From Demequina sediminicola (lineage in GTDB: Bacteria; Actinomycetota; Actinomycetes; Actinomycetales; Demequinaceae): 64,000 bases of DNA. Shown here one piece after another: positions 15,348-40,100 of this stretch. Position 1 is the first letter of the stretch, and each line of letters opens with the position of its first letter. Location of the stretch: positions 186,001 to 250,000 of the forward strand of contig NZ_BBRB01000001.1 of NCBI RefSeq assembly GCF_000975055.1, given 5' to 3'. The position numbers and the translations under genes are program-made. A model generated the notes under the pieces. That model did not search any database and was not told the origin of the DNA. It saw only the letters and a program-made list of their open reading frames with translations.

Positions 15348-15401
15348 AAATGGCTCCATTTGCCGGTTTTGAGGCCACAAGACTGGCAAATGGAGCCATT
15401 T
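15348..15401 (+). repeat. 54-nt palindromic intergenic element, copy 1
   Basis: Arms AAATGGCTCCATTT (15348-15361) and AAATGGAGCCATTT (15388-15401) flank a 26-nt centre; here the pairing extends to a perfect 17 bp including GCC/GGC. It lies 36 bp past the manC stop and about 175 bp upstream of the binding-lipoprotein start. Three further copies of exactly the same 14-26-14 spacing occur at 30841, 39314 and 40047. Confidence 0.8.
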
Positions 15402-15437
15402 CGCAAACAGGGGACAGGGGTGAGTGGCCGCTCGCGG

Positions 15438-16520
15438 TTAGAGCGACACGTCCTTCACTTTCTGAGCCTGTGCCCGCGTCGTGACCAGGATCGCTTCCTC
15501 CGTCTCGACCACCACAGCGTCGTCGATTCCGACGACCGCCACAGGCTTGGTGCCGCCGATCACCACGGCGCCATCGGCCGCCACCGCGTCCACGGCAGCG
15601 TCACGTCCCATCGTGATCGTGCCCGAGGCATCGGCCGTCAACAGTTGAGCAAGTGAGTCAAAATCGCCCACGTCGTGCCAGGCGAAACTCCCCGGGACCG
15701 TCGCCACTCCCCCAGCGGCCGCGACCGGTTCAGCAATAGCGTGGTCGATCGCAATCTTGGTCAACGTAGGCCACACCCGCTCCACGACAGTGTCGCGATC
15801 CGCGCTATCCCAGGCGGCCGCGATCTCTCGCACACCTGCTTCCAGAGTGGGCTGCAACCGAGCCAAGTGCCCCAACAGCACCGACGTCGACACCACGAAC
15901 ATGCCCGCATTCCACGTGTATCCACCGGCGGTCAACATCCGCGCCGCCGTGGCCTCATCAGGCTTCTCAGTAAACGCTTCGACAGCGAACGCCCCTGGCG
16001 CATCGGCTAGCGCCTGCCCAGCCTTGATGTACCCAAATGCACTCGACGGACCCGTGGGTGCAATGCCGAGTGTCACCACCTTGCCTGTGCGCGCGGCCTC
16101 GACGGCAGTCCGCACCGTGGTGCGGAACTCCTCGCCGTCCGGAATCACATGGTCCGCGGCAAAGGACCCCATGATCCGCTCGCCGTGGCGTTGCTCAATC
16201 ACCGCAGCAGCAAGAGCGATCGCCGCCATCGAGTCGCGCGGAGAGGGCTCGGTCAAGAGAGCCGATGCTGGGAGGCTGGGGACCTGCTGAGCGACGGCAT
16301 CGGCGTGCCGCACTCCCGTGACGACCAGTGTGGACTCTGTCAGTGGGGCGAGCCGGGCCACCGTCTCCTGGATCAGGGTCCGCCCGGTTCCCAGCAAATC
16401 GATGAGGAACTTGGGCCGATGCGGCTGAGAAAGTGGCCACAAACGGGAACCCACCCCTCCGGCAGGCACGACGGCCACGAAGTCATCAATGGGGTTTCTA
16501 CCGTTGTCCAAGGAAGTCAT
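15438..16520 (-). CDS. manC: Mannose-1-phosphate guanylyltransferase
   Basis: Makes GDP-mannose from mannose 1-phosphate and GTP for glycans and lipoglycans. The nucleotidyltransferase signature VVPAGGVGSRLWPLSQPHRPK, cited as PAGGVGSRLWPLS near residue 20, is followed by the family's KPKFLIDLLG-like segment, with FTEKPD near 180 and GMFVV near 205 matching the sugar-binding region. At 360 residues it lacks the C-terminal isomerase domain of bifunctional ManC/AlgA enzymes, as is usual in Actinobacteria. It is divergent from sdhC with 52 bp between starts, and is followed by a palindromic element. Confidence 0.9.
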   Translation of the reverse strand: MTSLDNGRNPIDDFVAVVPAGGVGSRLWPLSQPHRPKFLIDLLGTGRTLIQETVARLAPLTESTLVVTGVRHADAVAQQVPSLPASALLTEPSPRDSMAAIALAAAVIEQRHGERIMGSFAADHVIPDGEEFRTTVRTAVEAARTGKVVTLGIAPTGPSSAFGYIKAGQALADAPGAFAVEAFTEKPDEATAARMLTAGGYTWNAGMFVVSTSVLLGHLARLQPTLEAGVREIAAAWDSADRDTVVERVWPTLTKIAIDHAIAEPVAAAGGVATVPGSFAWHDVGDFDSLAQLLTADASGTITMGRDAAVDAVAADGAVVIGGTKPVAVVGIDDAVVVETEEAILVTTRAQAQKVKDVSL

Positions 16521-16572
16521 GGCACCACATTAGGATGGACGGCAAGACACCAAGGAATTCGAAGGAGAGTCC

Positions 16573-16947
16573 GTGTCACCAGCGCCCACCCTCTACCGAG
16601 GAGCAGAGGGGATGTGGATGTGGGTTGTGCACCGCACAACCGGCGTCGCCATCTTCTTCTTCCTCATGGTCCACGTTCTCGATACCGCATTGGTTCGAGT
16701 GTCCCCCGAGGCCTACAACGATGTGATCGGTCACTACAAGACCCCGCTCTACACCTTCATTGAAGCGGGCCTCGTCGCCGCCATCGCCCTCCACGCGCTT
16801 AACGGTCTGCGCGTCATCGCCGTCGACAGGTCGACATGGGCGTTGCGCCACCAGAAGCAGTTGGTGTGGGCGGTGTGGATCGGCTTTGCGATCATCATGC
16901 TCGGCTTCCTTCCCCGCCACCTCATGCACGCGTTTGGTGGTGCGTAA
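16573..16947 (+). CDS. sdhC: Succinate dehydrogenase cytochrome b556 subunit
   Basis: Membrane anchor of complex II, 124 residues with three helices. MWMWVVHRTTGVAIFF near residue 15 and ALHALNGLRV near 77 contain the histidines expected for haem b ligation and quinone-site contacts. The GTG start has GGAGAG a few bases upstream. Its stop overlaps the sdhD start (TAATG), beginning a coupled sdhCDAB operon in the same order and genomic neighbourhood (after cdd/deoA/add) as in mycobacteria. Confidence 0.9.
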   Translation: MSPAPTLYRGAEGMWMWVVHRTTGVAIFFFLMVHVLDTALVRVSPEAYNDVIGHYKTPLYTFIEAGLVAAIALHALNGLRVIAVDRSTWALRHQKQLVWAVWIGFAIIMLGFLPRHLMHAFGGA

Positions 16948-17396
16948 TGGCTCCGGCACCTGAACTGAAGGCCCCCAAGAAGGGCATCAGCCACTCGACG
17001 TTGGGACGCACGCAGCGGTGGTCCTGGATCTTCCAACGCGTTTCGGGCGTAGCCCTGATTCTGCTGATCACGATCCACCTGACCGTCAACCTCATCATGG
17101 GCGACGGCATCAACCAGATCGACTTCGCCTTCGTTGCGGGCAAGCTGGCCAACCCGTTCTGGCAGTGGTTCGACTTCGTGATGTTGGTCCTTGCCATGGT
17201 CCACGGCTCCAACGGCATGCGCATGATCATCGATGACTACGCACGCACCAAGTGGATGCACGCAACCCTGCAATGGGCGCTACGCATCGCGACCGTGGTG
17301 ATCATCGTTCTTGGCACCCTGGTGCTCTTCACCTTTGACCCCTGCCCAGCGGGCGCAGACGCGTCCCTTCTTCCTAGTTTCTGCGAGGGAATCTAA
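16947..17396 (+). CDS. sdhD: Succinate dehydrogenase hydrophobic membrane anchor subunit
   Basis: Second membrane anchor of complex II, 149 residues, three helices. WIFQRVSGVALILLITIHL near residue 27 and MVHGSNGMRMIIDDYAR near 90 are the quinone/haem-site segments of the SdhD family. I chose the ATG at 16947, which overlaps the sdhC stop by one base; the longer open frame from 16836 reads through sdhC in another frame. It ends immediately before the sdhA start codon. Confidence 0.9.
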   Translation: MAPAPELKAPKKGISHSTLGRTQRWSWIFQRVSGVALILLITIHLTVNLIMGDGINQIDFAFVAGKLANPFWQWFDFVMLVLAMVHGSNGMRMIIDDYARTKWMHATLQWALRIATVVIIVLGTLVLFTFDPCPAGADASLLPSFCEGI

Positions 17397-19172
17397 ATGG
17401 CAACCGAGCACGATTTTGACGTCGTTATCGTGGGCGCCGGTGGCGCTGGCATGCGTGCCGCGCTGGAAAGCTCACAGCGCGCCAAGACGGCCGTGATCAC
17501 CAAGCTCTACCCCACGCGTTCGCACACCGGTGCAGCGCAGGGCGGCATGGCAGCAGCGCTCGCCAACGTCGAGGACGACAACGCCGAATGGCACACCTTC
17601 GACACCGTCAAAGGTGGCGACTACTTGGTGGACCAAGACGCCGCAGAGATCCTGTGCAACGAGGCCATCGACGCGGTCCTGGACCTCGAGAAGATGGGGC
17701 TGCCGTTCAACCGCACCCCCGACGGCACTGTTGACCAGCGTCGCTTTGGTGGCCACACGCGTAATCACGGCGAGGCTGCGGTGCGCCGCGCCTGCTACGC
17801 CGCAGACCGCACCGGCCACATGATTCTGCAGACCCTCTACCAACAGTGCATCAAGCAGGAAGTGGAGTTCTTCAACGAGTTCTACGTTCTGGACTTGATC
17901 CTCGACGGCGACCCCCAGGCTGCCGGCGAAGATGGCGAAGTCGCTGCAGCGGGTGTCGTGGCGTACTCGCTGGCAACCGGCGAGATTCACACCTTCCGCG
18001 CCAAGTCAGTGGTGTTTGCCACCGGTGGCGCAGGCAAGGTCTTCAAGACCACGTCGAACGCTCACACCCTGACCGGTGACGGCATGGGCATCGCGCTCCG
18101 TGCAGGCCTGCCGCTGGAGGACATGGAGTTCTTCCAGTTCCACCCCACAGGCCTCGCTGGCTTGGGCATCCTGCTGTCTGAGGCTGCACGTGGTGAGGGC
18201 GGAATCCTCCGTAACTCCGAGGGCGAACGCTTCATGGAGCGTTACGCCCCGACCATCAAGGACTTGGCTCCTCGTGACATGGTCGCGCGCGCCATGGCCA
18301 ACGAAGTGCGCGAGGGCCGCGGTTGTGGCCCCAACAAGGACTACGTGCTGCTAGACCTCACGCACCTCGAGCCCAAGCACATTGACGAGAAGCTCCCCGA
18401 CATCACCGAATTCGCACGCACTTACCTGGGCGTCGAGCCTTACACCGAACCTGTGCCGGTGTTCCCGACGGCGCACTACGCCATGGGCGGCATCCCCACC
18501 AACGTTCAGGGTGAAGTCCTGCGCGACAACACCCACGTCGTCAAGGGCCTCTATGCGGCCGGCGAATGCGCCTGCGTGTCGGTGCACGGCGCCAACCGCC
18601 TCGGCACCAACTCACTGCTCGACATCAACGTCTTTGGGCGCCGCGCGGGCATCGCCGCAGCGGAGTATGCAAATGCCACCGAGACGACGCCGGAGCTCCC
18701 GGCCGATGCCGCGGCACGCCTCGAGAACACGGTGGCCCACCTGCGGAACACCGTAGGTGGCGAAGGCACGGAGCGCATCGCGCAGATCCGCAAGGAACTG
18801 CAGGAAACCATGGACCGCAACGTCCAGGTGTTCCGCACCGAAGAGTCACTTGCCGAGGCCCACGGCATCGTCAAGGACCTTCAGAAGCGCTACGAGAACA
18901 TCGCGATCCACGACCGTGGCACGCGCTTCAACACCGACCTCCTGGAAGCCATTGAACTGGCCTTCCTGCTGGAGTTGGCGGAAGTCGTGGTGCTCGGTGC
19001 CGAGGCTCGCAAGGAGTCGCGCGGTGGTCACTACCGTGAGGACTACCCCACGCGTGACGACGAGAACTTCATGCAGCACACCATGGCGTACAAGCGTGCC
19101 GATGGCACGGTGGACCTGGACTGGAAGCCCGTGGTGATCACGAAGTACCAGCCCATGGAACGTAAGTACTAG
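17397..19172 (+). CDS. sdhA: Succinate dehydrogenase flavoprotein subunit
   Basis: Oxidises succinate to fumarate. The FAD dinucleotide fold [14 protein letters not shown] is near residue 9, the covalent-FAD histidine is in [10 protein letters not shown] near 41, and [17 protein letters not shown] (cited in part, near 120) and EFFQFHPTG near 243 belong to the active site; [18 protein letters not shown] near 400 contacts FAD. 591 residues is normal. It abuts sdhD with no gap, and sdhB follows after 11 bp containing AGGAGG. Confidence 0.95.
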
Positions 19173-19183
19173 GAGGGACCGAC

Positions 19184-19951
19184 ATGACTGCGACAGCTGA
19201 GAAGCCTGCGGAGGTGGGCGCTATCCCCACCATGACGGTCACGCTGAAGATCATGCGTCACGACCCCGACGGTTTGGACGGACGCGAGCCCGGCACCGAC
19301 TACTGGGAAGAGTTCCAGGTCGAGGCACACGCCACCGACCGCGTCCTCGACGCCCTGCACAAGATCAAGTGGGAGCAGGACGGCACACTTGCGTTCCGTC
19401 GTTCCTGTGCACACGGTGTGTGCGGTTCTGATGCGATGCGCATCAACGCCCGCAACCGCCTTGCCTGCAAGACGCTCCTCAAGGATCTCAACCCCGCCAA
19501 GCCCATCCAGGTGGAGCCCATCAAGGGTCTTCCCGTGGAGAAGGACCTGATCGTGGACATGGAGCCATTCTTCGCCTCCTACCGCGAGATCATGCCGTTC
19601 CTGATGACCTCGGGCCCCACCCCGGAGCGCGAGCGCCTTCAATCGCCAGAGGACCGTCAGCGCTTTGATGACACGACCAAGTGCATCATGTGTGCTGCCT
19701 GCACCACGAGCTGCCCCGTGTTCTGGACCGACGGACAGTACTTTGGTCCACAAGCCATCGTGGGCGCACACCGCTTCATCTTCGACTCACGCGACGAAGG
19801 CGAATGGGACCGTCTGGAAATCCTCAACGACAAGGCCGGTGTGTGGAAGTGCCGCACGGCTTTCAACTGCACCGAGGCTTGCCCCCGTGGCATCGAGGTC
19901 ACCAAGGCCATCTCCGAGGTCAAGCACGCACTCAACACTGGTGAGATCTAA
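19184..19951 (+). CDS. sdhB: Succinate dehydrogenase iron-sulfur subunit
   Basis: Carries electrons from SdhA to quinone through three clusters. Ligands are visible for [2Fe-2S] in RRSCAHGVCGSDAM near residue 68 with a later cysteine in RLACK, for [4Fe-4S] in CIMCAACTTSCP near 168 and for [3Fe-4S] in CRTAFNCTEACPRGI near 222. 255 residues. AGGAGG precedes the ATG. It is the last gene of the operon; a strong terminator follows. Confidence 0.95.
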   Translation: MTATAEKPAEVGAIPTMTVTLKIMRHDPDGLDGREPGTDYWEEFQVEAHATDRVLDALHKIKWEQDGTLAFRRSCAHGVCGSDAMRINARNRLACKTLLKDLNPAKPIQVEPIKGLPVEKDLIVDMEPFFASYREIMPFLMTSGPTPERERLQSPEDRQRFDDTTKCIMCAACTTSCPVFWTDGQYFGPQAIVGAHRFIFDSRDEGEWDRLEILNDKAGVWKCRTAFNCTEACPRGIEVTKAISEVKHALNTGEI

Positions 19952-19996
19952 AGATCCGATGCGGTGACCGTACCTCGCGAGAGGTGCGCACCCCCA

Positions 19997-20064
19997 CACA
20001 GAAGCCGCGGGCGAGACACAGAAGCCGCGGGCGAGAGGGTCAACCTCTTGCCCGCGGCTTTTTA
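19997..20064 (+). terminator. sdh operon terminator with duplicated 5' arm
   Basis: AAGCCGCGGGC (20022-20032) pairs with GCCCGCGGCTT (20050-20060), followed by T's: a classical intrinsic terminator. The 20-bp unit containing the left arm is repeated perfectly in tandem (19997-20016 and 20017-20036), so two left arms compete for one right arm. Confidence 0.85.
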
Positions 20065-20065
20065 A

Positions 20066-21193
20066 CTATGAGCCGCGTTGCCGCTCCGTGGCCCGCGCGG
20101 TCGTCACTGAACCCTTGTCCCGGCGCGACGTGGGCTCGGCTGGCTGAGTGGGGATCAACTGCGTGTCAAGAATCTTGTCCTCGGGAAGCGTGCCTAGCCA
20201 GGCGGCAACGAACAACATGATTTTGGCCACCCAATCCGCAAAGATCAGGATGGTCAGCACCGCAGCGAACGATCCCAGCACCGGGTTATCGCCCACGCCG
20301 CCGACCACAAACGACACTCCCTGACGGAGGATGCCAATCGCGATGGCACCAGCAATGAGCGCGATGAACAGTTCCTTCTTGGCGCCGCGGTAGCGCCCCA
20401 ATACCACCATCGCCAATGCCAAGAAGGCCATGTCGACGAGGACACCCACAAGCAGTGCTGGCCCGCGGATAATCCATTGCGAAGCGACCTCGCCTGGAAT
20501 CCAGCTCGCCAAGACCTCTGCAAACTGCGAGGCAAGCACCTGCACAGCCATGCCCACGACAACAATCACACCAATGGCCAGCAGGGCGCCAAAATCACGC
20601 AACTTGCCCTGGACAGGCGCGTTGCGCTCCTTACCCAGCATGGTGCGCGTACCGACGCGGACAGCAGTGAGATAACGCGCGGCCGTATTGAAGAGAATCA
20701 AGAAGGAGACCACACCCACCACACCCGTGATGGTCTGTGGCTGGATGGCTCCGGGATCGATGAGTCCACCGGTATCACCGCTGTCATCCTTGACTACCCC
20801 CGGAATGGTGTCGTCAATGAACGAGTAGAACGTGTCATTCCAGTTCTCGTTGAACTGCACCATGAAGCTGGAGATTGTCACACCGATGACGAGGGCCGCT
20901 GACAGTGCGGTCAGGGAGAAGTACGCCATGCCTCCGGCGAGGACATTCGAGTTGCCCTCAGCCGCACGAGTGAGCATCTTTCCGAGATGGGTCCCGTCAA
21001 AGCGCTTCTTCTTCGCTTTGGCATCCGCAATCGCCGCTTTGGTCTTATCGATGGCACCTGAGCCTTCAAGTGATTGGCGGCTCCGCCGGACAGTCTTGGA
21101 CCCGTCGAACGCGTCACGCATAGACCTACGCTCGGGCGACTGGGCTTCGCCGGCCGTGCCGTCGGTGGACCTGGATTCGTCGGTGTCTGCCAT
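20066..21193 (-). CDS. YihY/BrkB-family inner membrane protein (YhjD-like)
   Basis: A 375-residue polytopic protein of the YihY/virulence factor BrkB family. A charged cytoplasmic N-terminus of about 85 residues precedes GMAYFSLTALSAALVIGVTI near 88, then FNTAARYLTAVRVGTRTMLG near 165 and about six helices in total. The biochemical role of the family is unsettled (older ribonuclease BN naming is wrong for it). It starts 3 bp after the trpS stop on the same strand; trpS next to a YhjD-like gene is also the mycobacterial arrangement (Rv3335c/Rv3336c). Confidence 0.82.
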   Translation of the reverse strand: MADTDESRSTDGTAGEAQSPERRSMRDAFDGSKTVRRSRQSLEGSGAIDKTKAAIADAKAKKKRFDGTHLGKMLTRAAEGNSNVLAGGMAYFSLTALSAALVIGVTISSFMVQFNENWNDTFYSFIDDTIPGVVKDDSGDTGGLIDPGAIQPQTITGVVGVVSFLILFNTAARYLTAVRVGTRTMLGKERNAPVQGKLRDFGALLAIGVIVVVGMAVQVLASQFAEVLASWIPGEVASQWIIRGPALLVGVLVDMAFLALAMVVLGRYRGAKKELFIALIAGAIAIGILRQGVSFVVGGVGDNPVLGSFAAVLTILIFADWVAKIMLFVAAWLGTLPEDKILDTQLIPTQPAEPTSRRDKGSVTTARATERQRGS

Positions 21194-21196
21194 CGG

Positions 21197-22219
21197 CTAC
21201 CCCTGCAGTTGTGGTGCGATGAGGCCTACGCGGTCGTAGAGACGTTCAAGCGTGGGACGGGCCATGCCGCGGGCCTTGCTGGCACCGTCCGCGAGCACCC
21301 CGTCCAACTTGTCAGGTGACTCGATCCAGTCCATTGCACGCTCGTGGACAGGCGTCAGATACTCCACCACGACATCGGCGAGGTCGACCTTGAGGTGGCC
21401 ATACATTTTGCCTTCGTATTCGGCGACGATGTCCTCGACCGTTCGCCCGGTGAGCGCCGAATAGATTGTCAGAAGGTTCGATACGCCGGGCTTCTCTTCC
21501 CGGTCGAACGACACCACCGTGCCGGAATCCGTCGCAGCTGACTTGATGTTCTTCGCGACCTTCTTGGGGTCATCGAGGATCTCGATCAAACCCTTCGGGC
21601 TTGAGAAAGACTTGGACATCTTCCTCGTCGGATCCTGGAGGTCATAGATCTTCGCAGTCTCCTTGACGATGTGCGGTTCAGGGACCACGACGGAGCCATC
21701 TCCGAGCCGGGTGTTCAGACGCTCTGCGAGGTCTCGGGAGAGTTCAAGGTGTTGACGCTGATCTTCACCCACGGGCACCACATTGGTGTCGTAAAGGAGA
21801 ATGTCAGCGGCCATCAGCACTGGATAGGTGAACAGCCCGACGTTAGTACCGGACTCCCCCACCTTTGCCGACTTGTCCTTGAACTGCGTCATGCGGCCGG
21901 CCTCGCCCATGCCAGTGAACGTCGACAGCAACCACGCAAGTTGAGTGTGCTCAGCCACATGCGACTGCACAAACACCGTGGAGCGCTCGGGGTCGACTCC
22001 CGCAGCGAGGAACTGCGCGGCCGTGCGGCGTGTGCGTTCTCGAAGTACAGCGGGGTCAGGCGCAACAGTCAACGCGTGCAGGTCAACCACGCCGTAGATC
22101 GCGTCATGCGTGTCCTGAAGCTTGACCCACTCCACCAGTGCACCCAAATAGTTGCCGAGCTGGAGGGAATCAGACGTCGGCTGCATGGCCGAAAACACGC
22201 GAGGCTTCATGCGCGCCAT
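21197..22219 (-). CDS. trpS: Tryptophanyl-tRNA synthetase
   Basis: Class I synthetase charging tRNA-Trp. The HIGH-like motif reads [12 protein letters not shown] near residue 16 and the KMSKS motif is [12 protein letters not shown] near 195, with the Trp-pocket residues in [19 protein letters not shown], cited as [10 protein letters not shown] near 145. I prefer the ATG at 22219 (MARMKP); a further upstream TTG at 22237 and an ATG at 22210 are possible. The C-terminal domain with [14 protein letters not shown] is complete. brkB-like follows after 3 bp. Confidence 0.92.
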
Positions 22220-22257
22220 TATTGCGCACGCACCCAACGTGGCGAAACCGCTGGTGC

Positions 22258-22698: not shown

Positions 22699-22735
22699 AG
22701 TTCTATTGTGCCGCCTTATCCCAACTGCGCAGTGC

Positions 22736-29899: not shown

Positions 29900-30772
29900 G
29901 TGTCACGCAGGCAGGGCTCACGCGGATCACGCGGATTCGCGTGGGCCCTGATTCTTGCGGTCACGATTGCAGCGGTCGTGTGGGTTCCCCAACTCTGGGA
30001 CCGGTACGCCGACCAACATTTCGCGACGTCGCGCTGCACCGTCACTCTTGGCGAGCGCACGGACACTAAGACTGCGGAGCAGGCGAACAACATCGGCCTC
30101 ATCGTGGCCGGATCGATGCGTTGGGGCCTGCCCGCCCGCGCTGCCACCATTGCCGTGGCCACAGCCATTCAAGAGTCCAGTTTGCGCAACATCGACTATG
30201 GGGACCGCGACAGCGTTGGGCTGTTTCAGCAACGGCCATCGCAGGGTTGGGGGTCTGTTGAGCAAATCATGGACCCCTACTACGCGACGGATCAGTTCTA
30301 CGAGAACCTCATCAAGGTTGATGGTTGGGAAACCATGGACGTCACCGACGCGGCTCAAGAGGTACAGCGCTCTGGCTTCCCGTTGGCCTACGCAGACCAC
30401 GAAGAGGAAGGCCGTCTGTGGGCCTCGGCGCTGACAGGCAACGGTGGTTCCGTCACCTGCGACCTTCCGGACCCCGAGGGCACGACCACCGCACGCGATC
30501 TTGCTGACCGCATCAGTGCGGACTTCGGTTCTGACGCCTATGCGGTCGAGGTCGTGGGCAGCGACGGCGATGACACGGTGATGCGCGTCACCGCAACAAG
30601 TGGCGACACCAACGCTAACCACGCCTTGCAGGAGTGGGCAGTGAGCGTAGCGGCATATGAGGCGGTCACATCGTCAACGGGGACGGCCGATGCTTGGGTC
30701 AGGGGCGGCGCGGAGCCGACAGAGGCGCCCGAGGCCGGAACGTTTGTGACGATCCGCACCACGACGCCGTAG
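29900..30772 (+). CDS. Membrane-anchored protein with a lysozyme-like motif, conserved hypothetical
   Basis: One N-terminal helix (FAWALILAVTIAAVVWVP near residue 13-30) precedes an extracytoplasmic domain. AATIAVATAIQESSLRN near residue 75 with GLFQQRPSQGWGS near 102 resembles the catalytic-glutamate and following segments of transglycosylase/goose-lysozyme-like domains; the glutamate of IQESSL is the candidate catalytic residue. Similar proteins are widespread in Actinobacteria without an assigned function. I chose the GTG at 29900, one base after the dapD stop, giving 290 residues. Cell-wall cleavage would suit the dap neighbours but is an inference. Confidence 0.6.
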   Translation: MSRRQGSRGSRGFAWALILAVTIAAVVWVPQLWDRYADQHFATSRCTVTLGERTDTKTAEQANNIGLIVAGSMRWGLPARAATIAVATAIQESSLRNIDYGDRDSVGLFQQRPSQGWGSVEQIMDPYYATDQFYENLIKVDGWETMDVTDAAQEVQRSGFPLAYADHEEEGRLWASALTGNGGSVTCDLPDPEGTTTARDLADRISADFGSDAYAVEVVGSDGDDTVMRVTATSGDTNANHALQEWAVSVAAYEAVTSSTGTADAWVRGGAEPTEAPEAGTFVTIRTTTP

Positions 30773-30840: not shown

Positions 30841-30894
30841 AAATGGCTCCATTTTGCTGTCATGAGCAGTCATAACAGCGAAATGGAGCCACTT
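30841..30894 (+). repeat. 54-nt palindromic intergenic element, copy 2
   Basis: AAATGGCTCCATTT at 30841-30854 and AAATGGAGCCACTT at 30881-30894 around a 26-nt centre that contains a second inverted repeat, TCATGA...TCATAA. CGCG flanks both arms, so the pairing spans 30837-30898 with few mismatches. It lies 28 bp past the gltA stop and 68 bp past the lysozyme-like gene, between convergent genes. Confidence 0.8.
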
Positions 30895-30907
30895 CGCGTG
30901 AAAAGGT

Positions 30908-30922
30908 GGGGGGGGGGGGGGG
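30908..30922 (+). repeat. G15 homopolymer tract
   Basis: Fifteen consecutive G residues directly follow the gltA stop codon (on the minus strand, C15). Tracts of this length are rare in bacteria and are prone to slippage and to sequencing error. Confidence 0.9.
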
Positions 30923-32212
<1,290 letters not shown>

Positions 32213-32270: not shown

Positions 32271-33392
32271 TTACCTACTTTTTTGCAATCGTTTGACAGC
32301 CTGTGCAATGCGTTCGTCAGACGCTGTCAGTGCGATGCGCACGTACTGCTTGCTCGCTTCCCCGTAGAACGCCCCCGGTGCGGCGACGATGCCGAGGCCA
32401 GCGAGAAAGTCGATGGTATCCCAGCAATCCTCTCCGCGTGTACACCACAAGTACAGTCCGGCCTCAGAACCGGCCACAGTGAAACCTGCTGCTTCCACCG
32501 CAGGCTTCAAGGCAGAACGGCGTGCCCGGTAGACCTCTCGCTGCGCGGAGACATGCGCGTCGTCCCGCAAAGCCGCGGCCATGGCCGCTTGGACGGGGGC
32601 CGGGACAATCATGCCCGCGTGCTTGCGGGTCTCGAGTAGTCCTGCGACGACGGCCGGGTCACCGGCGACAAACGCTGCGCGGTATCCGGCCAGATTCGAC
32701 TGCTTGGACAAGGAGTACAGCGCAAGGAGACCCTCGTGGGACCCTTCGCAGACCTCAGGGTCGAGTACCGACGGCACACCATCATTGATCCACGGCTCAT
32801 TCCATGGCAATGCTGCGTAGCACTCGTCGGACGCCACGATCGCTCCCATGGAGCGCGCCTGGCGTACGACGGCACGGAGCTGTTCCTTCGACAGGACCTC
32901 CCCCGTGGGGTTGGACGGCGAGTTCACCCACACCAAGCGAACATCGTCACGATGCGCCCACAGCGCCGGGTCGTCGGCCGCAATCGGCGTCGCACCACTG
33001 AGCGTCGCCCCCACCGCATATGTGGGGTACGCCGATGCTGGATGTACGACCGCATCGCCGTCGCCTAGCCCGAGGAGTGCCGGCAACCACGCCACCATCT
33101 CCTTGGATCCCACCGACGGGATGACGGCGTCAAGCCCCAGACCCTCCACACCGCGGGTGCGGGCAAACCAGTCAACGATGGCCCGACGCAGGTCTTCTGT
33201 TCCCTGAGTCGTGGGATAGCCCGGCGCGTCAGAGGCAGCACGCAGCGCCTCTTGAACGTGCTCCGGCGTGGGATCGACTGGAGTACCGACGGAGAGGTCG
33301 ACAACGCCGTCCGGGTGCGCGCGAGCGCGGTCGCGGAACGGGACCAGACTGTCCCAGGGAAAGTCAGGAAGAGCGCGCGGGTTCAGGCCCAT
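32271..33392 (-). CDS. dapC: Succinyldiaminopimelate transaminase
   Basis: Fold-type I PLP aminotransferase of 373 residues. LSVGTPVDPTPEHVQEAL near residue 34, VGSKEMVAWLPALLGLGDGD (in part, near 97), NSPSNPTG near 157 and the PLP lysine in YSLSKQSNLAGYRAAF near 232 are as expected. The close genomic link to ferredoxin (9 bp) is the arrangement of the actinobacterial DapC-type gene (compare Rv1177/Rv1178), and dapD and dapE lie within 5 kb, supporting the N-succinyl-LL-2,6-diaminopimelate role over a generic transaminase. Confidence 0.85.
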   Translation of the reverse strand: MGLNPRALPDFPWDSLVPFRDRARAHPDGVVDLSVGTPVDPTPEHVQEALRAASDAPGYPTTQGTEDLRRAIVDWFARTRGVEGLGLDAVIPSVGSKEMVAWLPALLGLGDGDAVVHPASAYPTYAVGATLSGATPIAADDPALWAHRDDVRLVWVNSPSNPTGEVLSKEQLRAVVRQARSMGAIVASDECYAALPWNEPWINDGVPSVLDPEVCEGSHEGLLALYSLSKQSNLAGYRAAFVAGDPAVVAGLLETRKHAGMIVPAPVQAAMAAALRDDAHVSAQREVYRARRSALKPAVEAAGFTVAGSEAGLYLWCTRGEDCWDTIDFLAGLGIVAAPGAFYGEASKQYVRIALTASDERIAQAVKRLQKSR

Positions 33393-33401
33393 GCGCGCGA
33401 A

Positions 33402-33725
33402 TCAACCGTTCGGGTTCGGCGGAAGCGCCTTGATCAGGTCGTGATCGTGCTCGATGAGACCCATCTTGGCGGCGCCGCCAGGCGAGCCAATCTCCGAGAA
33501 AAACTCGACGTTGGCGTCGTAGAAGTCTGCCCACTTGTCGGGGGTGTCATCTTCGTAGAAGATCGCCTCAACGGGGCAAACGGGCTCGCAGGCGCCACAG
33601 TCAACGCACTCGTCGGGGTGAATGTAGAGAGACCGTTCACCCTCGTAGATGCAGTCAACGGGACACTCGTCGATGCAGGCCTTGTCCTTGACATCCACAC
33701 AAGGCAATGCGATGACGTACGTCAC
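33402..33725 (-). CDS. fdxA: Ferredoxin (7Fe-8S type)
   Basis: A 107-residue bacterial ferredoxin with one [3Fe-4S] and one [4Fe-4S] cluster: cysteines near the N-terminus in ALPCVDVKDKACIDECPVDC (near residue 8) and a second set in CVDCGACEPVCPVEAI near 40. The C-terminal extension of about 50 residues is typical of the FdxA/FdxC type. The GTG start has GGAGGAG upstream. It reads into dapC. Confidence 0.93.
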   Translation of the reverse strand: MTYVIALPCVDVKDKACIDECPVDCIYEGERSLYIHPDECVDCGACEPVCPVEAIFYEDDTPDKWADFYDANVEFFSEIGSPGGAAKMGLIEHDHDLIKALPPNPNG

Positions 33726-33809
33726 TTTGACTCCTCCATCCGGGGTACAGGGCTAGGCCATCATACCGCTGTGCGATATGACAAAGCACACAACAATAGG
33801 CAACGACTT

Positions 33810-36164
33810 CTAGTCGTCTTCGTCTTCCTCAGACAAGCATTTGATCGCGTCGTCGGGTGCATAGGTCCAGGTATCGACGTTGCGGTCTACTTCCTCGCCG
33901 TCAAGCAGCACAGACCGGGTGTTCGTGATCGTGAAGCCGGGGTGGCCCGCGTTTTTGGACTCGCAGCCCTCGGCAGTGACTTCCTTGACGCCAGGCTGAC
34001 GAATGTTGGTTTTGTCCGACGCAAACGTCTCGACCTCGAAGTGCGGCGTGGACCACACTTCGACGTACAGCCTGCCGTTGCTCACGTAACTATTCATCAC
34101 GGCGGCATAAGGCGTGTTGTTCTCGAAAACCACGTTGATGGTTTCGCCCCACAGGGTCGACTCGCGTCCTGCCGGATAGCGCTCAAACCACACCGAGTGC
34201 GGCCGGTGCTGCAGGAGTTCAAACCCAGCGAAGTAGGCCGCGTTGTAGCTTGTGGTCGCCATTTGGGAGAGGCCGCCACCCATGCCATTCGTGAGGATGC
34301 CATCCACGATGACGTGCGCCTCGGCGTACCCCTCTTCTACCGTGATAGGCGCCAAGGTTTGCGCAAGGTTGAACTGATCTCCGGGGAGCAGCGTGGTGCC
34401 TTGCACGTCAGCGGCCGCAGTAATGAGGTTCTGGGTTCGGACATACTCGTTCGTGAGCGGCGTATCGAATGAGGCGACGACTTCCTTGAGGTCCTCGACG
34501 CCCAAATCCTCAGACCGCACGGCTGGCTCGGTGGTCACCACCGGCAGTTCTCCCGAGCGTGAGGCACTGAACGATGCTTCGACGAGGGCCTCGCCGAGGT
34601 TGTCCGCATCGACGCTTTGGCCATCGACGCCCGCAGTGGCTTGAATCTTCTGGCTGGAGTCAAAGGACACCTTGGCGTCCTTGGGCTCCGTCTCGAGCTC
34701 CGGTTGCGCGCTGACGATCTGGGCGGCCAGGGGCTCACCATTAATGACCAGTTCGAGTGCCCCGCCGGACGATTCGACAGACGCGTTCTCGGCAAGATCC
34801 TCGGCGCTGACCGCGACCTCGCCGGCATCGGAGACCAGCGTGACGGGTCCAGCCAGCGCTACGTCCGTCACTTCCCGTGCGAAGAGCTCAGCGGTCCCGT
34901 CTGTCACGGCCGGCTCGATCACGACAGCGTCAGCTTCAACATCGAGGGAGTCGGGCCATTGGTCAACGACAATCTCGGCCGTGGCGTCAGCATCTACCTC
35001 GATACCGGTGGACCCCGGCTCCGCAACAGCGACCGTTCCCACGATCTCCACCGTGGCATCGGCCGGTTCACTGTCGAGCTCCCGCGCTACACCATCGATC
35101 GCAGCGCTCAGGGCGTCATCCTCAACGGTGGTGACGACGTCGAGGTCACCCCCGCCCACAATGTGGCTCCACATGCGGTCAAGACGCCAGGTGAACCCCG
35201 TCGTCGCCTCCACTGTGGACTGCGCGTCAACACCCAAACCAGCGTCGCCGGCTGGAACCTGCGCTGTCGCTTCCCCGGCAGAGATCACCAGGTCCTGGGC
35301 AACCAATTCGTCTGCGGCCTCGTTGACAGCACCTACGGCCTGACCTGTCGACATACCGCCGATGTCGACACCCAGTGCGGTGGTACCGCGAGGCACGGTG
35401 TTGGACAGCAAGGCGGCACCCCCGACGTAGGCCACACCGAGGAGTGCGATGGCCGCGATCCCGACAATCCATCCCTTGCCACGGCGCTGAGGGCTTTCCT
35501 CGGTGACGGCTTCAGCCTCTGCGGGTTCCTCATGCGCCGCAGAGGAGGACTCGACGGCAGAGGACTCGGCGGCGGAAGACTCAACAGCGCTGGAGTTGTC
35601 GGAAGCAGGCACGGGCTCGGCCATGACGGCCGTTTGCTCAACGGCGGGTTCGGAAGTCTCCGAATCCTCGGGGGTACCAGCGTTGGGCGATGCCGGCACC
35701 GGTGCAATGACTTCCGTCGGAGCATCGTCACTCTCCGGGACGTTCTCGGCCTCCGCCTGGCCCTCCGCCTGGCCCTCCGGCTCTGGCACGGATGCGTCCT
35801 CACCTGCGTGAGAGCGTGCCAAGTGTGCGGCACCCGCGGCCGCAACAAAGCTCACCCGACCCACTCCGGCATCGGCCGGTGTCGCGCCGTCCTCATCGGT
35901 TGCTGCCTGCTCGGCCTTGTCATCGTGCAGAGGTGGTGCGGTGGGAGTTTCCGAGGCAAGCCACGTGGGCGTCGCCAGTTCCGCCGTGGGCGTGCGCTCG
36001 TACACCACCGCTTCTGGAGCGACGTCCGGTCCCGTCGACCCGGCGATGAAGCCACCCTTGCCGCGTGCTGCCCTAGACCGCAGTGAGCGATGCGCAGCGG
36101 AACGGCGCCGCCGCTCTACTTGCGCTTGGACTTCCCTGAGCTGTGCGTCCTTACGCCGTGACAT
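33810..36164 (-). CDS. VanW-family membrane protein
   Basis: A 784-residue protein: a long acidic, low-complexity cytoplasmic region (1-230), a helix near 235-258 (GWIVGIAAIALLGVAYVGGAALL, in part), an extracytoplasmic region with at least two repeated putative peptidoglycan-binding domains, then the VanW domain (about 590-700) with GDQFNLAQTLAPITVEEGY and GMGGGLSQMATTSYNAAYFAG in part. The tail has a CxxxxxNAGHPGFTITNTR segment. VanW itself has no proven activity despite being named from vancomycin operons. It overlaps the upstream small membrane protein gene by 14 bp. Confidence 0.85.
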   Translation of the reverse strand: MSRRKDAQLREVQAQVERRRRSAAHRSLRSRAARGKGGFIAGSTGPDVAPEAVVYERTPTAELATPTWLASETPTAPPLHDDKAEQAATDEDGATPADAGVGRVSFVAAAGAAHLARSHAGEDASVPEPEGQAEGQAEAENVPESDDAPTEVIAPVPASPNAGTPEDSETSEPAVEQTAVMAEPVPASDNSSAVESSAAESSAVESSSAAHEEPAEAEAVTEESPQRRGKGWIVGIAAIALLGVAYVGGAALLSNTVPRGTTALGVDIGGMSTGQAVGAVNEAADELVAQDLVISAGEATAQVPAGDAGLGVDAQSTVEATTGFTWRLDRMWSHIVGGGDLDVVTTVEDDALSAAIDGVARELDSEPADATVEIVGTVAVAEPGSTGIEVDADATAEIVVDQWPDSLDVEADAVVIEPAVTDGTAELFAREVTDVALAGPVTLVSDAGEVAVSAEDLAENASVESSGGALELVINGEPLAAQIVSAQPELETEPKDAKVSFDSSQKIQATAGVDGQSVDADNLGEALVEASFSASRSGELPVVTTEPAVRSEDLGVEDLKEVVASFDTPLTNEYVRTQNLITAAADVQGTTLLPGDQFNLAQTLAPITVEEGYAEAHVIVDGILTNGMGGGLSQMATTSYNAAYFAGFELLQHRPHSVWFERYPAGRESTLWGETINVVFENNTPYAAVMNSYVSNGRLYVEVWSTPHFEVETFASDKTNIRQPGVKEVTAEGCESKNAGHPGFTITNTRSVLLDGEEVDRNVDTWTYAPDDAIKCLSEEDEDD

Positions 36165-36504
36165 CGTCCCCCACCAAAAGTTTCACGGGCACTACAGCCG
36201 CAGCCACGATCGCAAGGACCGAACCCAACAGCCATGCCACTCCAAGCCCATCCTGAGCAATCAACACGGAATTGCCTGGGCCATTCAATGACCACACAGC
36301 AGTCGCCACGACCCACAAACCCGCAAAAACTCCAAGACCGTTCCATGACAACCAGGTCCGAGCAAAGATCGCGGCAGCCAGAACCATCACGATCGCAAGC
36401 ACCACGCCAAACGGTGGGATCGAGCGATACGCCACCGCACCGACCGTCGCCGTCAGCAGGCCTGCGAGCGCGACAACGACATACCCCACGGAGTCCTTCA
36501 TGCG
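36151..36504 (-). CDS. Small integral membrane protein (DUF6113-like)
   Basis: A 117-residue protein with four hydrophobic segments: VGYVVVALAGLLTATVGAVAYR near residue 5, FGVVLAIVMVLAAAIFAR near 35, then two more at about 60 and 90. The ATG at 36504 (MKDSVG) is chosen because the longer frame has no membrane character and overlaps the typA region. A similar membrane gene follows mshB in mycobacteria (Rv1171), which suggests family DUF6113; function unknown. Its 3' end overlaps the VanW gene, so the two are coupled. Confidence 0.65.
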   Translation of the reverse strand, partial: RMKDSVGYVVVALAGLLTATVGAVAYRSIPPFGVVLAIVMVLAAAIFARTWLSWNGLGVFAGLWVVATAVWSLNGPGNSVLIAQDGLGVAWLLGSVLAIVAAAVVPVKLLVGDDVTA

Positions 36505-36618
36505 CTCAAGGATAGGCGCATATCCACATTTCTCAGATGCACACAGCATCGATGTGATAGTTCCGTGACCCGCGCGGCGTATCGGCGAGCTCAAAGCGCA
36601 CAGTTCACTACACGCAAC

Positions 36619-36658
36619 AGGGCCGATGCCCCACTCAAGTGAGTGGGGCATCGGCCCT
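36619..36658. terminator. Long hairpin terminator carrying GGCCGATGC/GCATCGGCC
   Basis: A near-perfect 19-bp stem with a 2-nt loop: AGGGCCGATGCCCCACTCA (36619-36637) against its complement ending at 36658. It lies 21 bp past the typA stop. Both arms contain the over-represented 9-mer discussed in the findings. Confidence 0.8.
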
Positions 36659-36679
36659 TGAAGCTGTGCGAAAGACTCG

Positions 36680-38575
36680 TTACATCTTCTTCGCGCGCGA
36701 GGCGGCACGAGCACGCGTGGTTGCGTCCAAGTTCACCTTGCGGATGCGGATGTTCTCCGGAGTGACCTCAACGCACTCGTCTTCACGTGCGAACTCGAGG
36801 GATTCCTCCAACGTCAGTGTGCGAGGAGGCGTCAAGCGCTCAAGCTCGTCACCCGTGGCAGAACGAATGTTGTTGAGCTTCTTCTCCTTGCAGATGTTGA
36901 TGTCCATGTCCTCGCCGCGCGAGTTCTCACCAACAACCATGCCCTCGTACACCTCTTGGGTGGGCTTCACGAAGAACGTGCCGCGGTCCTGCAGCAGGAG
37001 CAGCGCGTTCGTAGTGACGGCACCGGTACGGTCTGCCACGAGCGAACCGTTGGTGCGGTACTCAATGACGCCGGCCCACGGTGCGAAGCCGTGCGAGATG
37101 GACGATGCGATGCCGGTTCCGCGAGTCTCCGTCAAGAACGTAGAACGGAAGCCGATCAGGCCACGGGCAGGAACGATGAATTCCATACGCACCCAGCCGG
37201 TGCCGTGGTTAGACATCGAGTCCATACGGCCCTTACGCGAGGCAAGCAGCTGGGTGACAGCACCCAAGTGCTCCTCAGGAACGTCGATGGTCATGTGCTC
37301 CATGGGCTCGTGAACCTTGCCGTCCACGTCCTTGGTCACTACCTGCGGCTTGCCGACAGTCAGCTCGAAGCCCTCGCGGCGCATCTGCTCCACAAGAATC
37401 GCCAGTGCCAGTTCGCCACGGCCCTGAACTTCCCACGCGTCAGGACGCTCGGTGGGCAGCACGCGGATCGAGACGTTACCGATCAGTTCCTTGTCAAGGC
37501 GGTCCTTCACCTGACGAGCCGTGACCTTGGCCCCCTTCACGCGGCCAGCAAGGGGCGACGTGTTGATACCGATGGTCATCGAGATTGCTGGGTCATCGAC
37601 AGTGATGCGAGGCAACGGACGCGGGTCGTTGAGGTCCGTCAAGGTCTCACCAATGGTGATGTCCTCGATACCGGCGACAGCAACAATGTCGCCAGGCTGT
37701 GCCACCTCAGCGGGAACGCGCTCCAAGCCCTTGGTCTGCAAAAGCTCAGTGATCTTCACGGTCTGGACCGAACCATCGGCCCGTGCCCATGCCACCTGCT
37801 GGCCCTTACGGAGCTCGCCGTTGAAGACACGCAGCAACGCGAGACGGCCCAAGAAGGGGCTGGCGTCAAGGTTGGTGACGTGCGCCTGCAGCGGGTGACC
37901 CTCCTCGAACACGGGTCCAGGGATGCGCTCCATGATGGTCTTGAACAGAGGCTCAAGGTTCTCGGAGTCAGGCAGTTCGCCGTCTGCGGGCTGGTTCAAC
38001 GAGGCGCGGCCAGCCTTCGCGGAAGCGAAGACAACAGGCACTTCGAGCAAAGCGTCGATGTCAAGATCAGGAACCTCGTCCTGCAAGTCCGCAGCGAGAC
38101 CCAGCAGGAGGTCGTGGCTTTCCTCGACCACAGCGCTAATGCGCGAGTCGGGGCGGTCAACCTTGTTCACCACAATGATGACAGGGAGCTTGGCCGCGAG
38201 CGCCTTGCGCAGCACAAAGCGAGTCTGCGGCAGCGGACCCTCGGACGCATCCACGAGCAGCACGACGCCGTCCACCATGGACAGTCCACGCTCAACCTCG
38301 CCACCGAAGTCAGCGTGGCCAGGGGTGTCGATCACGTTGATAGTGACGCCGCCCTCGGTCGCTGCTTCACCGGTGTAACGGATCGCGGTGTTCTTCGCGA
38401 GGATGGTGATGCCCTTTTCCCGCTCAAGGTCACCCGAGTCCATGGCACGGTCTTCGATGTGGGCGTGGTCGCCGTAGGCGCCGCCCTGGACGAGCATGCC
38501 GTCCACCAGGGTGGTCTTACCGTGGTCAACGTGGGCGACGATCGCGACGTTGCGCAGGTCGGAGCGCACAGGCAT
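36680..38575 (-). CDS. typA: Ribosome-associated GTPase TypA/BipA
   Basis: Translational GTPase that acts on 50S assembly under stress. G1 [15 protein letters not shown] near residue 14, G2 region after [13 protein letters not shown] near 45, G3 [18 protein letters not shown] (in part, near 78), G4 VNKVDRPD near 135; domains II, V and the BipA-specific C-terminal domain with [18 protein letters not shown] (in part, near 460) follow. The ATG at 38575 gives 631 residues, normal for the family; the frame to 38653 is not needed. No clear ribosome site precedes it. Confidence 0.93.
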
Positions 38576-38711
38576 GAGAAAAACTCGATTCGTTGAGATG
38601 AGAAGTCGGGCGCAAGGGGCGCACCGCCGATACAGTCTAGCGGGTCTCGTCAAGAGTCACCGATGAATGGCCTCCGTCGAGGGCGACGCACATCCGTGGC
38701 ACGATGCTCTC

Positions 38712-39260
38712 ATGCGTTCCTACCGCTCCCCCAGTGCACCCATGTGGGGCTGGATCGGCATTGCCGCCGGCGTGCTCATCGCAGTGCTCGGCACACTCGT
38801 TGAGGGGTTCCCCGTCGCCTTCGTTCCGATCACGCTCGGGGCAGCGATAGCGCTGATTGCCGTGGCGTGTTTTCTTCGTCCCAAGGTCGAAGTGGACGAT
38901 CACTCAGTCATCGTCCACAACATCACTCAGGTGGTTGAGGTGCCCTTTGCTCGCCTGGCCGATGTGGAGACGCAGTGGGGTCTGGAACTCGTCACCGATG
39001 ACGGCAAGAAGGTGGGCGCATTTGCGGCACCTGACCCCAATCGACGTGATCGGCGCAAAGCCCCACACGAACACAAGTCAGCCGACCTCGTGGCCATGGT
39101 GCGCGGCGGCGAGTCAGCATGGCTCGAAGGGCCTCATCGGGCACAGGACGAGCAGGCGTGGGCAGATGCGCCGTCGCGCGTCCGGCACTGGGATTTTGTG
39201 GGGGTCGCTCTTCTCGCGAGCGCCGCGGTGTTGATCATTGCGGGTATTGCTCTCGTTTAG
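38712..39260 (+). CDS. PH-like domain membrane protein
   Basis: 182 residues: two N-terminal helices (WGWIGIAAGVLIAVLGTLV and FVPITLGAAIALIAVACF near residues 12 and 35), a cytoplasmic or surface domain with alternating strands (VEVDDHSVIVHNITQVVEVPFARLADVE, in part) resembling the bacterial PH domain, and a C-terminal helix (FVGVALLASAAVLIIAGIALV). Function unknown. The ATG at 38712 (MRSYRS) is divergent from typA. A palindromic element lies 53 bp after the stop. Confidence 0.7.
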   Translation: MRSYRSPSAPMWGWIGIAAGVLIAVLGTLVEGFPVAFVPITLGAAIALIAVACFLRPKVEVDDHSVIVHNITQVVEVPFARLADVETQWGLELVTDDGKKVGAFAAPDPNRRDRRKAPHEHKSADLVAMVRGGESAWLEGPHRAQDEQAWADAPSRVRHWDFVGVALLASAAVLIIAGIALV

Positions 39261-39313
39261 TCTCGCCTCCCCCACACCCCGCGCTGCTCCACATCTCTTC
39301 GCGAATCCTCGTG

Positions 39314-39367
39314 AGATGGCCACATTTCGTCGTTATGAGCCCTCATAGCAGTCAAATGGAGCCATTT
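39314..39367 (+). repeat. 54-nt palindromic intergenic element, copy 3
   Basis: Left arm AGATGGCCACATTT (39314-39327) is diverged, right arm AAATGGAGCCATTT (39354-39367) is invariant; the 26-nt centre contains TTATGAG/CTCATAG. It lies between convergent genes, 21 bp past the PaiB-like stop. Confidence 0.75.
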
Positions 39368-39388
39368 GGCGAGAGGCCGCGTGCATCC

Positions 39389-40006
39389 TCACGCGAAATC
39401 TCGTCGCATACGGGCCGCGACCTCCACAGACTCTCCACCTCGCCCACTCATGCCTTCCGCGACCGCCTTGCGGTCAGCATCGGCCCGGTTCTGGCTCAAC
39501 TTATCCTTCGCAACGACGCGTGAGACAGCGATATCGACCCCGACGATGCCGTGAAGTTGCCCCTCGATGAAACGACCCGGAGCATCGTCAAGACTCCAGG
39601 GAACTGACTCCGCGGATTCATGGGTGTCCGTCAGCCGCGCAACCGCTCCACGCAACCATGCGGGGTCGCGTCGAAGCGTGACGGTTCCGCGGATCTGCAC
39701 TGTCGAGTAGTTCCAGGTTGGCACGACCCTGCCGTGTTCTGCCTTCCCCTGGTACCAGGAGGGAGTCACGTACGCTTGCGGCCCTGTCACGATGAGCAAC
39801 ACTTGCTGTCCGTCCCCGATCGCATCCACGTGCGGATTCTTTAATGCCAGATGGGCCTCGACGGTGTCGTCGCGCCACACGATCGGGAGTTGCGTCGCAT
39901 GCAGCTCTCCGGCATCGTCCACCGTCACCATCTGTGCCGAGCCGATGCTCGCGACGAAGTCTCGTACGTCTGCAGGCGGCATCTCGTTGAAGTGTGGGAC
40001 ATACAT
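39389..40006 (-). CDS. PaiB-family FMN-binding protein
   Basis: A 205-residue split-barrel flavin-binding protein of the PaiB group: MYVPHFNEMPPADVRDFV at the start, LPIVWRDDTVEAHLALKNPH (in part, near 40), GPQAYVTPSWYQ near 74 and VPTWNYSTVQIRGT near 95 are the conserved family blocks. PaiB was named as a transcriptional regulator of sporulation and degradative enzymes in Bacillus; many homologues are probably flavin-dependent enzymes. No DNA-binding domain is visible here. It sits between two palindromic elements. Confidence 0.85.
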   Translation of the reverse strand: MYVPHFNEMPPADVRDFVASIGSAQMVTVDDAGELHATQLPIVWRDDTVEAHLALKNPHVDAIGDGQQVLLIVTGPQAYVTPSWYQGKAEHGRVVPTWNYSTVQIRGTVTLRRDPAWLRGAVARLTDTHESAESVPWSLDDAPGRFIEGQLHGIVGVDIAVSRVVAKDKLSQNRADADRKAVAEGMSGRGGESVEVAARMRRDFA

Positions 40007-40046
40007 GCCGTCACAGTATCGACGGACCGCGCGCCAGTCTCTCGTG

Positions 40047-40100
40047 AAGTGGCACTTTCTGGTCGTTATGAGCCGTTAAAACAGTCAAATGGAGCCATTT
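40047..40100 (+). repeat. 54-nt palindromic intergenic element, copy 4
   Basis: Left arm AAGTGGCACTTTCT (40047-40060) is the most diverged; right arm AAATGGAGCCATTT (40087-40100) is intact, and the centre is nearly that of copy 3. The right arm provides the last codons and TGA stop of the adjacent regulator gene. Confidence 0.75.

Follow-up and report, generated by a model that had tools for sequence, protein, structure and literature searches.

A family of 54-nucleotide palindromic repeats in Demequina and a predicted nuclease gene lying between its copies

Four palindromic copies in the window

The stretch analysed here, referred to below as the window, comprises 64,000 nucleotides from Demequina sediminicola (C11:186001-250000 of a 2.46 Mb genome that we call G000) and holds four copies of a 54-nucleotide repeat in which two 14-nucleotide arms stand on either side of a 26-nucleotide linker. 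We describe the family to which these copies belong, its counterparts in related genomes, and a gene for a predicted nuclease-type protein that lies between two inverted copies elsewhere in G000. The copies in the window are as follows, where ARM denotes the arm sequence and END a different 14-mer found in place of one arm.

15348-15401 (no strand assigned): copy 1, an ARM-26-ARM palindrome between a Bmp/PnrA-like gene (14103-15221, minus strand) and manC (15438-16520, minus strand)
30841-30894 (no strand assigned): copy 2, an ARM-26-ARM palindrome between an unnamed plus-strand gene (29978-30772) and the citrate synthase gene gltA (scanned at 30923-32209, minus strand)
30855-30880 (no strand assigned): linker of copy 2, 26 nucleotides and palindromic, in a 14-26-14 register with a 40-nucleotide period
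39314-39367 (minus strand): copy 3, with a good arm at 39354-39367 and a decayed left arm
40047-40100 (minus strand): copy 4, with an arm at 40087-40100 and an END-type left arm, AAGTGGCACTTTCT

A preliminary description of this DNA had placed four copies of 54 nucleotides at these positions, with AAATGGAGCCATTT as the right arm of three of them and a one-base variant, AAATGGAGCCACTT at 30881-30894, in the fourth, and a reading of the sequence bears this out. The single orientation that it gave to all copies holds for copies 3 and 4, whose good arm is on the right, but means little where the palindrome is near-perfect, as it is in copies 1 and 2; the inner repeat TTATGAG/CTCATAA that it reported in copies 2 to 4 is merely approximate in copies 2 and 4. 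Its distances of 36, 28 and 21 bp to the 3' end of the adjacent minus-strand gene are correct for the first three copies, but copy 4, put at 0 bp, overlaps with its arm the last 16 nucleotides of the open reading frame (ORF) 40085-41545 (minus strand), including part of the stop codon. Pfam confirms the names citrate synthase and ManC-type transferase, but finds only helix-turn-helix domains in ORF 40085-41545, which had been called RamB-like. ORF 39389-40006 matches FMN_bind_2 (Pfam), which we take to be of the PaiB type. A long run of G, at about 30905-30922, lies immediately outside the gltA copy.

Size and anatomy of the family

With as many as three mismatches allowed, the arm has 15 matches in the window, against 1.75 expected and a maximum of 6 in 100 shuffles, counts in which near-palindromic arms score on both strands. 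Across G000 there are 86 matches at zero or one mismatch and none to a reversed control, and all 24 of the 24 pairs in this set that lie within 100 nucleotides of each other are 40 nucleotides apart (hand count). The covariance-model search proposed in the preliminary description, made here with a model (R1) built from an alignment (A2) of 60 copies, puts the family in G000 at 62 sites with fixed 14-26-14 spacing, and the four copies are therefore not coincidental terminators. Sixty of these sites come from a scan for 54-mers, which copies of other lengths could escape, whereas the model and BLAST searches are not bound to a length; C11:181749 was read separately and C11:327189 is known only as a full-length model match. 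Each of the 61 copies read has 54 nucleotides. A2, which consists of 60 unselected copies from G000 itself, is free of gaps, with 78.3% pairing and covariation that exceeds all 500 shuffles.

The full form of the repeat is GCC-AAATGGCTCCATTT-CGCTGTCTAGAGnnnTCAAAACAGCG-AAATGGAGCCATTT-GGC, that is, an arm, a palindromic linker and an arm. Both arms are within three mismatches in 32 of the 61 copies (the symmetric type), while the remaining 29 have another 14-mer in place of one arm (the asymmetric type), the surviving arm being letter-perfect in 24 of these. Three copies with AG in place of CT at the centre of the first arm carry the compensating change in the partner (C7:7239, C11:270933 and C11:181749); C11:972542 has CT in both arms and an unmatched centre. 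A conserved end module, AGAATCRACCGCCA, often takes the place of the lost arm in relatives, where it stands one 26-nucleotide linker from the other arm, and forms of it in G000 include AGAATCAGCCACTT and ATTTTTNGCCACTA. The pattern AATCRRCCGCCA, drawn up for this module, has 26 matches in 8 of 14 genomes; among the matches listed, it stands one linker from an arm in 10 of 10 cases in G029, 3 of 4 in G033 and 2 of 2 in G031 (two of these being shifted by one base), and in none of the seven cases in G013, G034, G023, G036 and G014. Another repeated hairpin, GGGCCGATGC...GCATCGGCCC, lies immediately beside several end modules and has a T-run at one of these places.

L306, L308, L311, L315 and L318 (loci), after the end module; the flank of C11:365404 in G000; L057: second hairpin

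Arms also form arrays of three or four nodes with an exact 40-nucleotide period at five loci (L116, L121, L122 and L125 in G029 and L161 in G031). The arms are themselves 14-bp palindromes or nearly so, and such regular spacing would suit binding sites of a chromosome-organising or regulatory protein, whether the product of the bracketed gene or another, that are kept for a host function. The uneven distribution of the repeat points the same way: on the 426 kb of G000 outside contigs C7, C9, C10 and C11 there are no copies against 10.7 expected (C8, which carries a Mur ligase gene, is one of these copy-free contigs), whereas 13 copies lie in the final 130 kb of C11. The exact arms that we found, however, all lie within the 54-nucleotide form, which counts against this explanation, as do several observations given below, and we judge it distinctly unlikely. 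For the same reason we do not favour a DNA-uptake-like sequence.

Placement relative to genes

The copies are concentrated at the ends of genes. With genes taken from a home-made codon-usage caller, 34 of 60 copies (of the 62 sites) lie in convergent spacers, 22 in tandem spacers and 4 in spacers called as divergent, whereas convergent and divergent spacers account for 14.5% and 31.7%, respectively, of background spacer bases (spacers of at least 60 nucleotides, 464 kb of window and G036). The distance from stop codon to element is 12-68 nucleotides, with a median of 31 (57 ends), and the intervening stretch is rich in C: 58.5% C and 13.5% G, compared with 34.7% C and 29.8% G at 85 other gene ends. 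Asymmetric copies in tandem spacers direct their good arm toward the gene 3' end in 11 of 13 cases (hand count), the remaining two being members of closely spaced inverted pairs.

This placement is what would be expected of a lineage-specific 3'-end signal, namely a bidirectional terminator or a hairpin without a U-tract that protects mRNA, and thus of a Demequina counterpart of the mycobacterial TRIT terminators, near-palindromes that are reportedly conserved at the ends of genes in a single actinobacterial lineage, Mycobacterium (the name is said to belong with RNIE, Gardner 2011). The symmetric copies that were folded form strong hairpins, some asymmetric copies contain a T-run (ATTTTT) within the replaced arm, and some spacers of G036 that lack the repeat hold, by eye, another hairpin (76150, 82204, 270933). 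Stem-loop 3' ends without a U-tract are also known in Streptomyces, according to the available text of PMC8269248. Nevertheless, we consider a 3'-end signal an unlikely explanation of the family, and the first argument against it comes from the C-rich stretch. This stretch resembles an RNA signal, yet its presence depends on the arm and is independent of the gene end. Outside the retained arm of asymmetric copies, the flank has 59% C and 8% G where a gene ends there (19 copies) and 56% C and 14% G where none does (10 copies), while the flank outside the replaced arm has 42% C and 26% G at a gene end (10 copies) and 39% C and 28% G elsewhere (19 copies). Symmetric copies have the C-rich flank on either side. 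A Rho-type C-rich leader of the gene was accordingly rejected as the principal explanation, because the C-rich flank is present outside the arm with or without a gene end.

Constraint on DNA or on RNA

An RNA hairpin is expected to tolerate G·U in preference to A·C mismatches. In 47 symmetric copies with one gene end nearby, pooled over all species, the sense-oriented mismatches comprise 47 G·U and 44 A·C (p 0.83). Among the best inverted repeats at 186 other 3' ends the corresponding numbers are 88 and 61 (p 0.03), and at the 19 control ends with a U-tract they are 10 and 3 (p 0.09); this control is weak, which gives the test some power, though not great power. Because G·U and A·C are equally common in sense copies and the C-rich flank follows the arm, the palindrome looks to be kept as DNA rather than as RNA. 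The RNA folds of copies 1 and 2 are strong (z -7.05 and -11.0), while those of copies 3 and 4 scarcely beat shuffles (z -1.5 and -1.1). The consensus has no T-run, the hallmark of an intrinsic terminator, after the distal arm. The absence of a U-tract and of a G·U bias, together with the 24 of 29 asymmetric copies in which a perfect arm has no partner, agrees with the earlier statement that the repeat is not a simple terminator, and the unpartnered arms also speak against a 3'-end signal in general. Canonical terminators are no rarer at gene ends with a repeat (13 of 68, some of the 13 being the element itself) than at others (12 of 81), so that a comparison for mutual exclusion of the two gave a null result.

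Copies within the reading frame of a Mur ligase gene

In five relatives (G014, G015, G029, G031 and G033) a gene that Pfam identifies as encoding a Mur ligase, presumably murC, contains a copy that keeps the reading frame and always has the same position, and each insert is spelled in the local manner of its species. The other 25 of the 30 Mur ligase loci read, which include those of G000 and G036, have no such insert. A terminator at this position would cut a cell-wall gene, which disfavours the terminator reading, and an in-frame insertion is also awkward for binding sites kept for the host.

Dialects and shared positions in relatives

When one genome per species was scanned with the exact pattern (84,980 species, a set from which the species' own records were possibly left out), 29 stretches were retrieved, all of them in four named Demequina species. 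Demequina relatives keep the length of 54 nucleotides and spell the repeat in a species-specific way, which we refer to as dialects.

G014: AAATGGATCCATTT, with another linker
G029: AAATGGGCCCACTT and AAATGGATCCATTT
G033 and G031: similar to AGATGGATCCATCT
G015: ATTTGGCACCATTT

A gap-free alignment of 58 copies, hand-picked from nine genomes and mostly symmetric, a choice that favours pairing, has changes on both sides at 24 of 28 pairs and 272 such cells against 94 in shuffled data. At orthologous spacers the repeat is present in the dialect of each species. Many positions are therefore old, and the spelling differs in concert at many places, which suggests a partner that recognises it. Concerted differences of this kind would also be expected of sites for a host DNA-binding protein, but presence and absence vary between close species: of 16 spacers that can be compared between G000 and G036, 8 are occupied in both (hand count). 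Among the copies of the window, the spacer of copy 2 is occupied in G036 and also in G009, whereas copies 1, 3 and 4 are absent from G036. At two places in G000 (C11:365104/365404 and C11:662031/662235) a pair of asymmetric copies flanks 246 and 150 nucleotides, respectively, where G036 has one symmetric copy.

A second model, R2, was used to look for the palindrome beyond the genus as well. Of 297 genomes from the order, 19 have it: 10 are Demequina, 7 belong to a family that we call f6 and 2 to a third family. In a class-wide draw of 394 genomes R2 had matches in seven, four of which have one or two uninspected matches each.

A nuclease-type gene between two copies

In G000 (C11:920830 and 922063) and in G033, two inverted ARM-26-END copies enclose a gene at the pheA-dagK locus, which consists of genes for prephenate dehydratase and a protein of the diacylglycerol kinase type (Pfam). 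The enclosed protein matches PF04480 (DUF559) above the cut-off and PF18741 (REase_MTES_1575), the latter below the curated cut-off in G000. It is predicted to consist of an AbiEi-like half and a half like homing endonucleases and Vsr, with a catalytic fold of the homing type; both fold and catalytic type are predictions. A search of PDB sequences with the enzyme gave nothing useful, and its structure model (A5) is poor, with a predicted local distance difference test (pLDDT) score of 48.6.

When 59 relatives were searched with the protein, the best matches were in G000, G036, G014, G029, G033, G031 and G015, with a lower one in G034; some homologue at E 1e-15 exists in 38 of the 59 genomes. 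In the seven Demequina with the best matches the gene adjoins pheA, and dagK lies on its other side in six of them (it was not found in the short locus of G029). Copies in the local dialect flank the gene in all seven. The upstream and downstream repeats match each other far beyond 100 shuffles in G000, G036, G014, G033, G031 and G015, the inverted match extending over 98 columns in G036, while in G029 the downstream copy is damaged, its arm being gone, and the score is 29, compared with 26 for shuffles. The protein diverges faster than its neighbours: in five species it is 41-45% identical to that of G000, compared with 72-80% for a piece of PheA and 60-66% for a piece of DagK (four species), and between G036 and G000 the corresponding values are 71%, 84% and 77%. 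The reading of pheA-dagK loci left out G023, G107 and G213.

The same arrangement is found in family f6. In G041 two palindromes 1,057 nucleotides apart enclose a gene of the same type (PF18741 at E 7e-7, below the cut-off), and 20 further stretches around palindromes in ten f6 genomes contain a homologue in two, both bracketed; these loci were chosen because they hold palindromes, so that unbracketed homologues fall outside the sample. The protein of one of the two, in G209, is 79% identical, and that of G130, which belongs to another genus and has a different palindrome, 46%. Protein profiles of Demequina and f6 are collinear over 200 columns (E 2e-5, probability 77). Altogether ten bracketed loci were read (seven in Demequina and three in f6); in nine the gene lies between two copies that match clearly above shuffles, and in the tenth it lies beside one intact and one damaged copy.

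From these observations, we hypothesize that the 54-nucleotide palindromes are a family of the repetitive extragenic palindrome (REP) type that is likely recognised, and probably spread, by the predicted nuclease with AbiEi-like and Vsr/homing-type halves, a reading to which we give a probability of roughly 0.55. The enzyme would bind the 14-nucleotide arms through its AbiEi-like half and would cut or nick at or near the palindrome, after which repair or transposition would copy the repeat; copies would persist mainly after genes, where an insertion may do little harm. The product of the gene next to the repeats is a predicted nuclease and not a bare DNA-binding protein, which is a further point against sites kept for a host function.

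Several findings weigh against this hypothesis. The pheA-dagK loci of G009 and G034 are empty, the two genes facing each other with neither such a gene nor a palindrome or model match between them, and classical homing into a pre-existing site is therefore not supported there. Homologues in G034 (E <1e-55, outside pheA-dagK) and in G020 lie at loci without a repeat, the nearest catalogued copy to any of three further homologues in G000 is at least 11 kb away, and the copy-rich G107 was left out of the gene test. The sharing of half of the 16 spacers between G000 and G036 means that movement is slow. The difference from G036 at copy 1 is a larger, unclean indel and not a clean 54-nucleotide insertion; no target-site duplication was seen by eye in the flanks, and none of the comparisons yielded a clean young insertion. 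Within Demequina, moreover, the co-occurrence of gene and repeat may in part reflect shared ancestry, an objection that is weakened because the gene is found in two f6 genera, one of which has its own dialect.

Other candidate partners

The preliminary description had raised the possibilities of a REP-like mobile palindrome, of a signal for processing or termination and of a site for a nucleoid protein, and had suggested looking for the gene of a REP-associated tyrosine transposase (RAYT). The first possibility draws support from the 62 sites with fixed spacing, their placement in convergent spacers and at 3' ends, and the in-frame copies in five relatives. The transposase itself was not found: the Y1_Tnp/REP transposase family PF01797 has no match in G000, while a control detected it in 5 of 14 genomes, and a RAYT partner was rejected on this ground; what occupies a RAYT-like position is the gene of another enzyme.

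An ordinary REP or miniature inverted-repeat transposable element family whose transposase has since been lost, the nuclease gene having come to lie between copies by chance or as cargo, would account for the at least five other gene-bearing intervals between two copies in G000. We find this very improbable, since genes for the same type of enzyme have the repeat on both sides, each time in the local dialect, in ten species from two families. The genes enclosed by inverted pairs differ (by eye, aspS-like, lipoprotein-like and Abi_2-like), and an autonomous transposon at every pair was likewise rejected. IstB (E 1e-37 or below) occurs among Demequina only in G003, G012, G017, G018, G021 and G024, all without R1 matches, and because no Demequina with the repeat was found to have IstB proper, an origin from IS21 was rejected; this result and the absence of Y1_Tnp from G000 also count against a family left by a lost transposase. 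In G017 (L266, near 820 and 1429) the arm-like 14-mers AAATGGGGCCATTT and AAATGGGGCCACTG lie near IstB genes. These IS21-type loci could be cited for a lost transposase, and a distant link between IS21 ends and the repeats is possible; the 14-mers are kept as a lead only.

Comparison with known systems

To our knowledge, RAYTs are the only enzymes tied to REP-type repeats. They are the enzymes named for REPs in the available text of Nunvar 2010 (PMC2817692) and Di Nocera 2013 (PMC3733652), and a RAYT gene between two REPs is the known REPtron layout (PMC2817692, in the part available). The resemblance to what these sources describe, as far as their available text goes, is extensive: REPs are palindromic and multicopy, lie after genes or between convergent genes, with some in ORFs, and form arrays, and the enzyme gene lies between two inverted copies, evolves fast and co-varies with the repeat. 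The differences are that the repeats here have 54-60 nucleotides, compared with 20-40 for REPs in the same texts, and lack a one-sided GTAG/CGTC tag, and that no Y1/HUH transposase was found (in G000), the bracketed gene encoding an AbiEi-like and Vsr/homing-type protein instead. The flanks of the repeats in G000 are mostly CGCC or CGCG and largely paired with the other side; in G014 they are CGTC, paired with GACG. CGTC-type REPs apparently lack a dedicated transposase, according to the part of PMC3733652 available. The family thus works like a REP system, but it is not a REP/RAYT system, because its tag, its size and its enzyme all differ.

Rickettsia palindromic elements share with the present family in-frame palindromes in housekeeping genes (here the Mur ligase gene of five relatives), but are about 150 bp long in the available text of PMC10969869, whereas the repeats here are shorter, mostly intergenic and associated with a bracketed nuclease-type gene. 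Compared with Vsr-like homing endonucleases such as I-Bth0305I (PDB 3r3p), the protein has an AbiEi-like N-terminal half and its gene lies between palindromes, where it is not seen inserted in a cleaved recognition site; compared with AbiEi antitoxins (PDB 6y8q), the AbiEi-like half is joined to a nuclease-type half. From TRIT, terminators named in the available part of PMC3526491, the family is set apart by its signs of DNA-level constraint, its dialects, its in-frame copies and the bracketed enzyme gene. No link between such a nuclease type and palindromic repeats was found in the literature searched.

More tentatively, as a proposal that falls somewhat short of even odds, the family may represent a second, independent type of REP system, in which a homing-type nuclease with an AbiEi-like half, and not an HUH transposase, drives a palindromic repeat, enzyme and dialect co-evolve in each species, and the repeat can even become established within the reading frame of an essential cell-wall gene. 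If a nuclease of another fold does hold the RAYT position, the REP way of life would have arisen more than once, an orphan class of repeats would have a candidate enzyme, and the dialects would provide a natural series of enzymes and palindromes for studying change in DNA recognition. It would also offer a possible function for part of the DUF559/PF18741 group of proteins, whose members are described in Pfam as unknown or as resembling restriction enzymes.

Further searches

The f6 palindrome has no match in the plasmid or phage collections searched, nor the gltA copy in the plasmids. An Rfam scan of the window returned no matches at the repeats; its sole match above threshold is a Guanidine-III riboswitch (RF01763) at 5494-5557 on the plus strand.

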